Below the pieces are notes generated by a model. It was not told the DNA's origin. It saw only the letters and a list, made by a program, of their open reading frames with translations, and searched no databases. From Candidatus Tectimicrobiota bacterium (GTDB lineage: Bacteria; Tectomicrobia; Entotheonellia; Entotheonellales; Entotheonellaceae), in assembly GCA_026005175.1 (NCBI GenBank), contig BPKO01000001.1, positions 744,001-808,000 of the forward strand: a DNA stretch of 64,000 nt. Reading direction: 5' to 3'. Position numbers and translations under genes: made by a program. This document shows, one piece after another, positions 131 to 6,308 of this stretch (positions are counted from its first letter, which is position 1; each line of letters begins with the position of its first letter).

Positions 131-364
131 TTACTCTGCCAGCGCCGCGTCGATGGCGGCGGGATTGAAGCCGCTGAGGCGCTTGTCACCAATGACGATC
201 ACCGGCAGCGAGCGCAGCCCCATGCTCATCAGCTCCTGCACCGCTTCGGGATCGCGGGCCACGTTTTTCTCGATGTAAGGCACGCCTTTTTGCGATAGAT
301 ACTCCATCGCTTGGTGGCAAGCCCCTCAACCGATGTTGCTGTATACGATGACCTGCTTTGCCAT
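131..364 (-). CDS. Glutaredoxin-like UxxC selenoprotein (in-frame UGA at 326-328)
   Basis: Reading through one TGA gives a 77-residue thioredoxin-fold protein of glutaredoxin/NrdH size. It starts MAKQVIVYSN, has Sec13-Gly-Ala-Cys16 in place of the usual CxxC, the cis-proline segment SLPV (Pro54) and the glutaredoxin-like GF pair (65-66), and ends at a TAA. The TGA falls exactly on the catalytic first cysteine and a SECIS-like hairpin follows (292-310). GGAGG precedes two adjacent ATGs (367 and 364); 364 has the better spacing. It lies 35 nt downstream of the ArsC-like selenoprotein and probably shares its transcript. The family would act as a cytoplasmic thiol/selenol oxidoreductase; the partner is unknown. 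A standard gene caller would miss it. The alternative, a nonsense mutation, is unlikely because the neighbour has the same architecture. Confidence 0.85.
292..310 (-). promoter_or_regulatory. SECIS-like hairpin of the glutaredoxin-like selenoprotein
   Basis: On the minus strand GCGATGGA and TCTATCGC pair over eight positions (one G-U wobble) around the loop GUA. The loop begins 23 nt after the UGA. Bacterial SECIS elements lie inside the coding region just downstream of UGA, typically 16-37 nt before a small apical loop with a G in its first two positions; both conditions are met. The structure was folded by eye and not scored. Confidence 0.65.
326..328 (-). other. UGA proposed to encode selenocysteine (glutaredoxin-like protein)
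   Basis: This TGA is followed in frame by Gly-Ala-Cys, so it takes the place of the N-terminal nucleophilic Cys of a CxxC motif. Reading continues in frame for 64 further residues with family-like sequence. TGA is used as a normal stop elsewhere in the window (for example dop, pup, pafA), so reassignment of the whole code is excluded. Confidence 0.8.
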
Positions 365-399
365 CATGGCCTCCTTTGCCAGCGTCACGTCGACGGCGC

Positions 400-747
400 T
401 CACCGGAAGACGTCGGCAAACACCTGCTCATTATAGCCAACGAGCAGCGTTTGCCCCACCCGCAGCGTGGGAGCACGCAGGTTGCCCGTGGGCCCAAGCA
501 GGAGCGCCGCCAACGCCTCCTCCGACGGCGGTGCTGCCTTCAAGTCCACGGTGGTGACGTGTTTCCCTTTCATGGCAATGAGCCGCTGTGCCGTACGGGC
601 CAGGGCCAGGGCTTCGGCACGGCCAAGCCGCTTGGCGGCGCTGACCGTTTCCCGCACGGCGATGCCATGCGTCTCCAGAAACTTGGAGACTTTGGCACAC
701 GTGGCTCACCCCTTGCGATGGTAGTACCAGTCGACCTCTGCGGCCAT
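400..747 (-). CDS. ArsC/Spx-family UxxC selenoprotein (in-frame UGA at 706-708)
   Basis: Reading through one TGA gives 115 residues, the normal length of the ArsC/Spx family. The N-terminus has Sec14-Ala-Thr-Cys17 (context YYHRKGU) where family members have a redox cysteine. The C-terminal half has the ArsC-like segment GPTGNLRAPTLRVG near residues 85-98. Translation starts at an ATG preceded by GAAAGGA and ends at 400. The best-known members reduce arsenate or act as thiol-redox regulators; the natural substrate cannot be told from sequence, and selenocysteine versions of this family are known in several bacteria. Without Sec decoding only the last 85 residues would be called, as a falsely truncated protein. 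It is the first gene of a two-gene selenoprotein unit. Confidence 0.88.
663..697 (-). promoter_or_regulatory. SECIS-like hairpin of the ArsC-like selenoprotein
   Basis: On the minus strand a perfect 7-bp stem, GTCTCCA with TGGAGAC, closes the loop AGUUUC (678-683). An outer stem, TGCCA (693-697) with TGGCA (663-667), continues it across a small internal loop. The apical loop begins 22 nt after the UGA and has G in its second position, matching bacterial SECIS rules. This is one of the most regular hairpins seen in the window. Confidence 0.75.
706..708 (-). other. UGA proposed to encode selenocysteine (ArsC-like protein)
   Basis: The TGA is followed in frame by Ala-Thr-Cys, giving UxxC at residues 14-17. 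The upstream part (from ATG 747) and downstream part both look like ArsC/Spx family sequence, so the stop interrupts one continuous domain precisely at the redox residue. Confidence 0.82.
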
Positions 748-797
748 AGCTTTCCTTTCTGCGCGACACGCGGTCCCCTTTGGCCAGCCAGGGAAGG

Positions 798-827
798 AGT
801 CTATCAGACCTCCGGCAGGCAGCGCAA
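798..827 (-). promoter_or_regulatory. Possible promoter of the selenoprotein pair
   Basis: On the minus strand TTGCGC (822-827) and TAGACT (798-803) are separated by 18 nt and lie 51 nt upstream of the ArsC-like start, in the 86-nt gap after the PHP gene. Both boxes match the sigma-70 consensus only partly. The pair could instead be read through from the PHP gene. Confidence 0.35.
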
Positions 828-833
828 CGGGCG

Positions 834-1667
834 TCAGTCGTGCTTGAAACGCAGGTGCTCGCCGTGCACGGGAAAAAAATCCCCGTCGCGTAAAGCCACC
901 ACCAGGTCGTCCAGAGAGCGGATGGGGCCGTCAAAGAGGGTAAGATACGAGTAGAGGCGAGACATCTGGTGCGCGTCGCTGCCGCCCAGACCGCGCAGGC
1001 CGTGTTTGCGGGCGTACTCGATGGCCATCAGGTTCTGGTCGGCCGGCGTCTTGCCGTTGAGGATCTCGAGCGTCACCAGCTCTGAAGCCAGCTCGTCGGC
1101 GGGCAGCTCGCGCAGCAGACTCGTTTCGCGAAACGGGTGTGCCGGCACCGCCACCCCGGCGTCGAGGGTCTTCACCAGCTCGAAAAACTCGGGCCCGGTG
1201 GGCTTCACCGTAAGCTGGGGGCGGTCAAGTTCATAAGTGTAAATGATTTCCGGGTGTGACCCGTAGTAGAGGACGTGGCCGTGCTCGGTGCTCACCTCGG
1301 CGCCGGCAAGAAACCGCAGCGTCTCTCCCTGGTTGAGGCGCTTGAGCGCCGCCGGATCGTAAATGTAGTCGTGGTCGGTAATGACGATAACCAGGGGTAC
1401 GCAGAAGTGTTCGTAGCAAAAATACCCCTTTTTGTAGAGGGCCTGCGTCCAGGAAAGGATGCGTTCGGGCTCGATGAGGCCGTCGGAGCGCGGCGTGTGG
1501 CTGTGCATTTCCACCGCCGTGACCGGCCGGGACTTGAGCAACTGGAGGAGGTACGCCGGGGGGCTGAGCTCGCGGCGCTGTTTTTTGCTAAACGTGCGCG
1601 GGTCGTACCAGCCCGCCTCGACGAGTTCGTCTAAGTACCGTTCTCTGACCGCAGCAAAGCTCGCTTG
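834..1667 (-). CDS. PHP-domain phosphoesterase
   Basis: The 277-residue protein carries the metal-binding signatures of the PHP superfamily: HSHTPRSDG (His56, His58), an internal ITDHDY, GAEVST, AHPF and a C-terminal GGSDAH. Such proteins use two or three metal ions to hydrolyse phosphoesters; the substrate of this subgroup is not known. The ATG at 1667 is preferred over a GTG at 1709 because a purine-rich GGATGGGA precedes it and the extra residues look like upstream noise. The exonuclease gene starts divergently 147 nt away. It could act in nucleotide or sugar-phosphate turnover, but no neighbour fixes the role. Confidence 0.8.
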   Translation of the reverse strand, partial: QASFAAVRERYLDELVEAGWYDPRTFSKKQRRELSPPAYLLQLLKSRPVTAVEMHSHTPRSDGLIEPERILSWTQALYKKGYFCYEHFCVPLVIVITDHDYIYDPAALKRLNQGETLRFLAGAEVSTEHGHVLYYGSHPEIIYTYELDRPQLTVKPTGPEFFELVKTLDAGVAVPAHPFRETSLLRELPADELASELVTLEILNGKTPADQNLMAIEYARKHGLRGLGGSDAHQMSRLYSYLTLFDGPIRSLDDLVVALRDGDFFPVHGEHLRFKHD

Positions 1668-1814
1668 CATCCGTGTCCCATCCTCTACGCGCGCCCCAGT
1701 GCGCCGCACCGGGCTGGTCGTCTGCTCACGCGTGCGCTAAGATTGTACCATGCCTTGCGTGGGACGCGTCACGGAGAGAAGCCATCACGACGGGCACCGG
1801 CAAAGGAGCGGCGC

Positions 1815-3731: not shown

Positions 3732-6308
3732 ATGCAGACGCGACGGCTGGTTCTCCTGTTGCTCTTCGTCCTGGCCAGCGCCGTGCAGGCCAAAGTGGTG
3801 CACACCACCCTGGACAATGGCCTCACCGTGCTCATTGAGGAAAACCACACCCATCCGGTCGTCTCGGTGCAGGTGTTCGTGCGCACCGGCAGCATTTACG
3901 AGCAAGAGTACCTCGGCAGTGGCATTTCCCACTTCTTTGAGCACGTCATCCACGGGGGCACCACCACCACGCGCAGCGAAGCCGAAAGCCGCGAGCTTCT
4001 CGAAGCCATCGGCAACCACTCCAACGCCTATACCACCACCGACCACACCGCTTACTACATTACCACCACCACCGAGCACTGGCCGACTGCCCTGGAGCTG
4101 CTGGCCGACTGGATGCTGCACAGCACGATTGAGGAAGCGGAGTTTGAGCGCGAAAAGGGGGTGGTGCAGCGCGAGATCGAGCAGGGGCTCGACAACCCCC
4201 TGCGCGTGCTGTTCCAGGCCGCCCAGGAGGAGCGCTACAAAGTCCACCCCGCCCGCTATCCGGTGATCGGCTACAAGGAGCTGGTGCAGCAAATCACCCG
4301 CGACGACTTGCTCACGTATTACCGGCGCATGTACGCGCCCAACAACATGATCCTCGTGGTGGTGGGCGACGTGCAGGTGGCCGACGCCCTGGCCCGCATT
4401 CGCCAGGCGTTTGGCGGCAGCCCGCGGCGCCGCCTGCCGGTGATCAGCCTGCCCGAGGAACCGCCGCAGCTCAGCCCGCGCCGCGTGGTCAAGGAGATGG
4501 ACGTGGCGCAGGCGTATCTCAGCCTGTCGTTCCGCACTGTCCCCCTCACCCACCCCGATCTTTACCCCCTGGACGTGCTGGCTTTTATTCTTGCCGAAGG
4601 CGACAGCGCCCGCCTGGTCAGGCGCTTGCGCGACGAGCGGCAGCTCGTCTATCGCATCGAGGCGGCCTCTTTCACCCCGGCTTATGCCCCTGGCAGCCTG
4701 GTGGTGTGGGCCACCCTGGCGCCCGAGCAGCTCGAGGCCGCGGAGCAGGCAATTTTGCAAGAGCTCTACCGGTTGCGCGAGGAGCCCGTGACGCCGCAGG
4801 AACTGGCGCGGGCCAAGCGGCAGAAAGTGGCCGACCACCTCTTTGCGCAGCAAACGGTGCAGGGGCGCGCCCGCACCCTGGGACTGGACATGCTGAGCAC
4901 CTTTGATCCCACCTTCAGCGACACTTACGTGCAGCGCATCCAGGAAGTTACCGCTGCCGACATCCGCCGCGTGGCCCAGCAGTATTTCCGCGAAGAGACC
5001 CTGGTCACAGCGGTGGTGCGCCCGCCGCGCGCAGCGGCTTCCGCGGTCCCGGCAGCGGCAGCGACTTCCCCCACGGTGATGCAAAAACGGGTTCTCCCCA
5101 ACGGCCTGACGCTCCTTGTGCAGCGCAACCCGGCCTTGCCCATCGTGGCCATGCAGGCTTACTTCAAAGGCGGGGTGCGGGTAGAGACGCCGGAAACCAA
5201 CGGCCTGTCGCGCCTCATGGCGCGGCTGCTGCCCAAAGGGACGACGTCGCGCCGCGCCGAGGAGATTGCCGCGTTCTTTGATGGCATCGGCGGCAGCCTC
5301 ACCGCCGACTCGGGAAACAACAGCTTTTACGTGCACGCCACCTGCTTGCGAGAGGACTTTGCGGCGGCGCTTGAGGTCTTTGCCGACGTCATCACCCACC
5401 CGACATTTCCCTCCGAGGAGCTGGCCAAGATGCGGCGGCTCATGCTGGCCGAGGTGCGGCAGCTGCGCGACACCTGGCAGTCGGAGATCCGGACCCTCTT
5501 TCGCCAGACCTTTTTCACCGTGAGCCCCTACCGCCTGCTGCCCGAAGGCAGCGAGGCGTCGCTGGCGCGCTTGCAGCGCCAGGACGTGCAGGCGTTTTAT
5601 GCCCGTTACGTGGCGCCGAGCAACCTGGTGCTGGCCATTGTCGGCGACGTCGACGTCGAGGAGACCACCGCCCTGGTGGCCAAGTTCTTTGCGGACTTGC
5701 CGCCGCGCCCGGTGACGTTTCCGCCGGTGCCGGCCGAACCCTTCCCCCAGGAGACTCGCCGGCGCTTCGTGCCCACCCAGAAGCAAGTGGCCGCCATCGC
5801 CATTGGCTATCCCGGCACCACGCTCACCAACCTGAAGGACCGCTACCCCCTACACCTTCTTGACGCCATCCTCTCGGGCATCCAGTTTCCGGGGGGCTGG
5901 CTGCACACGCAGCTGCGCGGCCAGCAGCTGGTCTACGTGGTGCACGCCTTCAACTGGCTGGGGCTTGACGCCGGCTACTTCGGCATCATAGCAGCCACCC
6001 AGCCTGAGAAAGCCGAGCGCGTCGTCGAGCTCATTCTGCGCAACGTCGAGGAGGCCAAAGCCGGGCGCTTCAGCGAGGCCGAACTCGCGCGGGCCAAGCA
6101 ACTGGCCGTGATCGCCGCGCAGCTGGACCGCCAGACCAACGCGGAGCTGGCCAGCGATGCGGCCCTCAACGAGCTCTACGGCCTGGGATACGACTTCAGC
6201 GCCGGTGAGGCGGCCCGCATCCGTAGCGTCAGCAGGGAAGACGTGCTGCGCGTGGCACGCACTTACCTGCAGCATCCCACCATCGTCATTGCCTCTCCCG
6301 AACCCTAA
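3732..6308 (+). CDS. Exported M16-family zinc peptidase, two-domain (pitrilysin-like)
   Basis: The 858-residue precursor begins with a signal peptide (about residues 1-20, LVLLLLFVLASAVQA). The first M16 domain has the inverted zinc motif HFFEH (67-71) and a third ligand near Glu148. The second M16 half begins near residue 450 (LPNGLTLLVQRN) and lacks HxxEH, as is usual for the non-catalytic half. These enzymes form a clam-shell and degrade peptides, here in the periplasm. A TTG lies immediately before ATG 3732; the ATG is preferred, preceded by GGGAGAGGG. It is transcribed away from the M20 peptidase gene and converges on the gene ending at 6321. Confidence 0.88.
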   Translation: MQTRRLVLLLLFVLASAVQAKVVHTTLDNGLTVLIEENHTHPVVSVQVFVRTGSIYEQEYLGSGISHFFEHVIHGGTTTTRSEAESRELLEAIGNHSNAYTTTDHTAYYITTTTEHWPTALELLADWMLHSTIEEAEFEREKGVVQREIEQGLDNPLRVLFQAAQEERYKVHPARYPVIGYKELVQQITRDDLLTYYRRMYAPNNMILVVVGDVQVADALARIRQAFGGSPRRRLPVISLPEEPPQLSPRRVVKEMDVAQAYLSLSFRTVPLTHPDLYPLDVLAFILAEGDSARLVRRLRDERQLVYRIEAASFTPAYAPGSLVVWATLAPEQLEAAEQAILQELYRLREEPVTPQELARAKRQKVADHLFAQQTVQGRARTLGLDMLSTFDPTFSDTYVQRIQEVTAADIRRVAQQYFREETLVTAVVRPPRAAASAVPAAAATSPTVMQKRVLPNGLTLLVQRNPALPIVAMQAYFKGGVRVETPETNGLSRLMARLLPKGTTSRRAEEIAAFFDGIGGSLTADSGNNSFYVHATCLREDFAAALEVFADVITHPTFPSEELAKMRRLMLAEVRQLRDTWQSEIRTLFRQTFFTVSPYRLLPEGSEASLARLQRQDVQAFYARYVAPSNLVLAIVGDVDVEETTALVAKFFADLPPRPVTFPPVPAEPFPQETRRRFVPTQKQVAAIAIGYPGTTLTNLKDRYPLHLLDAILSGIQFPGGWLHTQLRGQQLVYVVHAFNWLGLDAGYFGIIAATQPEKAERVVELILRNVEEAKAGRFSEAELARAKQLAVIAAQLDRQTNAELASDAALNELYGLGYDFSAGEAARIRSVSREDVLRVARTYLQHPTIVIASPEP

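Follow-up and report, generated by a model that had tools for sequence, protein, structure and literature searches.

Two adjacent minus-strand genes in the window (the whole 64,000-nt stretch analysed, from a Candidatus Tectimicrobiota genome) form a conserved pair that, at the level of sequence, consists of two selenoprotein genes with SECIS elements. ORF A encodes an ArsC/Spx-like protein and ORF B a glutaredoxin (Grx). Overall, these observations are best explained, with moderate confidence, by a two-selenoprotein operon in which a reductase would reduce the selenocysteine (Sec)-containing Grx (B), which in turn would reduce the Sec-containing Spx-like protein (A). The source genome (G000, 4.0 Mb, 77% complete) has Candidatus Entotheonella among its relatives and was analysed with three further genomes (G001, G002 and G003), giving a family set of four genomes from three genera. 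The features of the pair are as follows.

751–759, minus strand: Shine-Dalgarno-like sequence of ORF A, GAAAGGAAA (GAAAGGA; from the sequence)
400–747, minus strand: ORF A, ArsC/Spx-like selenoprotein of 115 aa; ATG at 747–745, TGA (U14) at 708–706, Cys17, stop TGA at 402–400 (NF041106, homologous loci, AF2 model and fold match)
706–708, minus strand: Sec-UGA of ORF A (codon TGA at 75 of 81 loci, TGC/TGT at the other 6)
671–690, minus strand: SECIS-type hairpin of ORF A, GTCTCCAAGTTTCTGGAGAC, with G-U at its apex, +26/+27 (compensatory pairs; lost in Cys homologues bar one marginal case)
370–377, minus strand: Shine-Dalgarno sequence of ORF B, AAAGGAGG (from the sequence)
131–364, minus strand: ORF B, glutaredoxin selenoprotein of 77 aa with Sec at residue 13; ATG at 364–362, TGA (U13) at 328–326, Cys16, stop TAA at 133–131 (PF00462, identity to cGrx1 and TGA orthologues)
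326–328, minus strand: Sec-UGA of ORF B (TGA in all four orthologues)
292–310, minus strand: SECIS-type hairpin of ORF B, GCGAUGGAGUAUCUAUCGC (DNA identity, fold z and synonymous recoding)

The predicted proteins begin MAAEVDWYYHRKG-U-ATCAKVSKFL (ORF A) and MAKQVIVYSNIG-U-GACHQAMEYL (ORF B), which places the single in-frame TGA of each gene in the contexts YYHRKG-U-ATC and YSNIG-U-GAC, respectively. The ORFs lie 35 nt apart on the same strand and are probably one operon. The original prediction described two minus-strand genes, each with one TGA followed by Cys (UATC and UGAC) and preceded by a ribosome site, and read them as UxxC selenoproteins of thioredoxin-fold families in one operon. Its coordinates and motifs were right, Shine-Dalgarno-like sequences precede both ORFs, and its reading of the genes agrees with ours. 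Directly upstream of the pair lies a gene for a PHP-domain-like metal hydrolase (801–1709, minus strand; named by inspection), which is also upstream of the pair in G003 (L022) and absent from that position in G001 and G002.

The original prediction had also proposed a search for the Sec machinery, and all of it is present in the source genome. The tRNA-Sec scores 76.5 bits (cut-off 47), selA lies immediately before selB, and selD (G000:C9:120631–121554, minus strand, L015) has one in-frame TGA, such that its product, selenophosphate synthetase, is probably a selenoprotein itself. SelA, SelB, SelD and tRNA-Sec are among the features expected alongside bacterial selenoproteins. UGA is a stop in the standard code, and the two UGAs might then be true stops or pseudogene lesions, with the downstream matches as remnants. 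However, both TGAs are kept in three independent public assemblies, and the sequence after the UGA is under purifying selection in every pairwise comparison of the family genomes (dN/dS of ~0.14–0.31 for A and ~0.05–0.17 for B, rough ratios since some synonymous distances are near saturation). Because of this conservation, the low dN/dS, the SECIS-type hairpins described below and the complete machinery, the UGAs reflect neither chance nor sequencing error. It is near certain that ORF A and ORF B are both selenoprotein genes, and a stop or lesion at these positions is vanishingly improbable.

The hairpin occupies the same position in both genes, spanning +18 to +37 as counted from the UGA, and its tip has G-U at +26/+27, in agreement with the published bSECIS rule of a stem-loop after the UGA that carries G in the first loop positions, 16–37 nt away (PMC13188914). 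For ORF B, the hairpin DNA is the same across six codons in all four genomes (three genera), where five of the six conserved codons have synonymous alternatives and most synonymous sites elsewhere vary. For the window, the 59-nt fold gives z = −3.1 relative to shuffled sequences, and its stability stands out against synonymous recoding in each of the four genomes (p ≤ 0.004). Of the 75 TGA sequences of ORF A, 27 carry the hairpin in one register and 42 in another, and compensatory pairs occur, for example G-C/U-A at 20–34. Its apical G-U is found in 71 of 75 TGA forms versus none of the six Cys forms, one of which retains a run of at least four pairs in one register (a marginal match). Against synonymous recodings the TGA forms show extra stability (mean z −1.8) that the Cys forms lack (−0.13), a group-level signal that reaches p ≤ 0.05 individually in just 31 of the 75 TGA forms. 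An Rfam scan for a SECIS family gave nothing relevant, its three listed matches being at chance level.

The same G-U register is seen in Grx genes of the relatives and in two more Sec-Grx genes of the source genome, both outside the window and with TGA at the active site and SECIS-type hairpins. One has the motif AASUGAC (G000:C6:12724–12927, plus strand, L107) and the other RPGUSSC (G000:C6:1077–1289, minus strand, L111). The latter has a C-terminal extension, DinB-like in appearance, that also occurs in G001, G002 and G004.

ORF A is, as judged from its sequence, a Spx-like member of the known UxxC selenoprotein family NF041106 (ArsC_rel_Se_1; 130.2 bits, cut-off 85, residues 5–110). A search of genome contigs returned 80 homologous loci from Planctomycetota, Myxococcota, Acidobacteria, Gammaproteobacteria and others. 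Together with the window these give 81 loci, in which codon 14 is TGA in 75 and Cys (TGC/TGT) in six, while Cys17 is present in every one. The expected exchange between Sec and Cys was therefore seen at residue 14 of ORF A; at residue 13 of ORF B all four family orthologues have TGA, with no Cys orthologue in the sample (five genomes of the phylum plus the 80 ORF A loci). Table 1 of PMC13188914 gives the family as 'Arsenate reductase-like protein, UxxC', and a 2008 list has it as 'Arsenate reductase 2' (cd03032, UxxC; PMC2398784). The AlphaFold2 (AF2) model of ORF A has a pLDDT of 94; in a fold search with this model, as in a profile search, arsenate reductases rank below Spx and YffB. Among solved structures Spx matches the fold best, with TM-scores of only 0.51–0.57, and one of the best sequence matches, 2m46, carries the depositors' name 'arsenate reductase, putative'.

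We considered whether ORF A could be a seleno-arsenate reductase with ORF B as its Grx donor, acting in arsenic resistance; arsenate chemistry was among the suggestions of the original prediction. Classical ArsC uses Grx, and ORF A matches PF03960 (ArsC), at 24.5 bits barely above the cut-off of 24. The catalytic motif of E. coli-type ArsC is HX3CX3R, of which ORF A has H10 and U14, but Ala at position 18 in place of the Arg. Among 49 aligned members this position is T, K, A, V or G in most; the motif GPTGNLRAP is invariant in all 49. Two further observations speak against this role: Spx and YffB proteins rank with the top matches by sequence and by fold, and only one of the four family genomes has an Acr3 match. 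Arsenate chemistry by ORF A is unlikely, an arsenate reductase function was rejected on motif, fold and context, and the combined arsenic-resistance scheme is highly improbable.

Alternatively, ORF A might be a selenium-based, Spx-like transcriptional switch that is reset by B, as Spx is the nearest solved structure and likewise uses an N-terminal CxxC switch. Spx needs its Gly52 loop for α-CTD binding, yet ORF A lacks a 4-residue insertion where this loop falls (alignment with 1z3e), and it scores 28.2 bits with the Spx model TIGR01617 against a cut-off of 75. Both observations weaken the case for a Spx-type transcription factor, which we regard as improbable. Compared with Spx (PDB 6gho and 1z3e) and YffB (1rw1), its nearest solved relatives in fold and sequence, ORF A has its redox pair at the same place as their dithiol, but differs in having Sec, no Gly52 loop and its own GPTGNLRAP motif. 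By homology we favour for ORF A an oxidoreductase of thiol/selenol type, or a redox switch, whose target may be a protein or small-molecule disulfide.

ORF B matches the glutaredoxin family PF00462 (52.4 bits, cut-off 22.9), and U13-G-A-C16 fits the U/CxxC/S motif. It scores below the cut-offs of UXX-star NF041212 (46.2 bits versus 66) and YruB TIGR02196 (74.3 versus 88.55). The nearest solved relative is the dithiol cGrx1 (7c10; 39% identity across 74 residues), which we take to be Clostridium oremlandii Grx1. The native form of that protein has U13 and C16, and it resolves MsrA, which in C. oremlandii is also a selenoprotein (PMC4479559). ORF B shares with C. oremlandii Grx1 (PDB 7c10, 7c12 and 7c13) its fold family, length and Sec13/Cys16 pair. 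In contrast, the partner of C. oremlandii Grx1 is Sec-MsrA whereas the neighbour of ORF B is the Spx/ArsC-like protein, the motif is UPHC rather than the UGAC or UGPC of ORF B orthologues, and no glutathione synthetase was found in the genomes with ORF B. A Sec-MsrA was rejected as the partner of ORF B here, since the MsrA gene has no in-frame TGA and is located elsewhere.

ORF A and ORF B are adjacent, with both TGAs, in all four family genomes (three genera), and the flanking genes differ: the window and G003 have the PHP-like gene upstream, and G001 and G002 have other genes. Neither a B-like Grx nor a gene for ferredoxin-thioredoxin reductase (FTR), a candidate electron source, was found in the fetched flanks of the other 77 ArsC-like loci. 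ORF A occurs at these 77 loci without an adjacent B or FTR, and thus B is not an obligate partner of A. In the data covered, the pairing of A and B is restricted to Entotheonellota, and outside this group ORF A has no conserved neighbours beyond close relatives. Such a distribution would suit two genuine selenoproteins that function independently and whose adjacency is merely the inherited gene order of one small lineage. Against this, the pair has been retained in three genera despite its differing flanks, and the spacing is short and on the same strand; we consider independence rather unlikely, while giving it some weight.

FTR is one possible electron source for the pair. Each of the four family genomes has a single gene for its catalytic subunit (PF02943), which is near the pair in three. 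In G001 and G002 it is convergent with ORF B, ~50 nt from stop to stop. In the source genome it lies at G000:C1:741421–741672 (plus strand), ~2.5 kb before window base 131 and outside the window, beyond the view of the original prediction. In G003 (L118) it is away from the pair, and TGA takes the place of the final Cys codon in its CHC motif (CHU). The gene scores far under the threshold for the 'double-U' FtrB family, NF041072. FTR is outside the operon and its proximity to the pair could come from inherited synteny. In the source genome only, two methionine-synthase-like (MetE-type) genes in the opposite orientation separate the FTR gene from the pair (L112, ~4000–6062; named by inspection), reaching into the window start.

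Glutathione synthetase (PF02955) had no match in any of the four family genomes; glutathione may yet be taken up or made by a diverged pathway. Thioredoxin reductase is above the cut-off in the source genome only, slightly below it in G003, and nowhere over it in G001 and G002. Absences from the source genome are weak, given its 77% completeness. Besides its canonical thioredoxin reductase, the source genome has two or more further Sec-Grx genes, and these could serve A instead. By its title, PDB 7pwe is a fusion of Grx with a ferredoxin disulfide reductase, from Desulfotalea psychrophila. It resembles the present case in joining Grx to a ferredoxin-dependent disulfide reductase, although there in one protein; here two genes encode Grx and FTR, at nearby positions in three of four genomes, and the Grx has Sec.

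We propose the following working of the pair as a relay from reductase to B to A. Judged from the sequence, SelB, guided by the hairpin 18–37 nt past each UGA, inserts Sec at the first UxxC position of A and B. A would have B as its dedicated reductant, on the model of C. oremlandii Grx1 and MsrA: the U13 selenolate of B may attack the selenenyl-sulfide that U14 and C17 form in oxidised A, or else a mixed selenenyl-sulfide joining A to its substrate, with resolution by residue C16 of B. The reduction of B would need no glutathione and would probably come from the nearby FTR or, in genomes that have one, from a thioredoxin reductase. Putative targets of A are of disulfide, selenenyl or sulfoxide type. 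The electron donor and acceptor roles of the original prediction fit the C. oremlandii precedent of Sec-Grx and Sec-MsrA; the relay itself we infer. A more specific form, a ferredoxin-driven, glutathione-free selenol relay particular to Entotheonellota, would run from FTR (Cys or Sec) to Sec-Grx to the Sec-Spx/ArsC-like oxidoreductase; in G003, as many as three consecutive steps would then involve Sec. This form is possible but doubtful.

Selenoprotein genes in shared operons often share a pathway (PMC13188914). The operons given there (grdA-grdB, prdB-prdC, frhA-frhD-hdrA, Prx-SelW, Prx-like/AhpD-like, SAO and Tso) likewise comprise neighbouring Sec redox genes presumed to serve one pathway, and a pair of ArsC-like and Grx genes is not among them. 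Nor did we find a description of an ArsC/Spx-like and Grx selenoprotein pair in that review or in the open papers searched. ORF A resembles the NF041106 family in its score over the cut-off, the UxxC motif and the alternation of Sec and Cys, and differs only in its operon partner. The pairing and the FTR proximity appear new, as the original prediction had supposed of the pairing, while the families of A and B were already known as selenoproteins.

The NF041106 ArsC-like UxxC family has been catalogued since 2008, and we found no reported function or partner for it in the open literature. A conserved operon with a Sec-Grx, in bacteria where glutathione synthetase was not detected, gives this family a testable partner. 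It also suggests that electron transfer from Sec to Sec, as known from Grx1 and MsrA of C. oremlandii, is perhaps a wider strategy.
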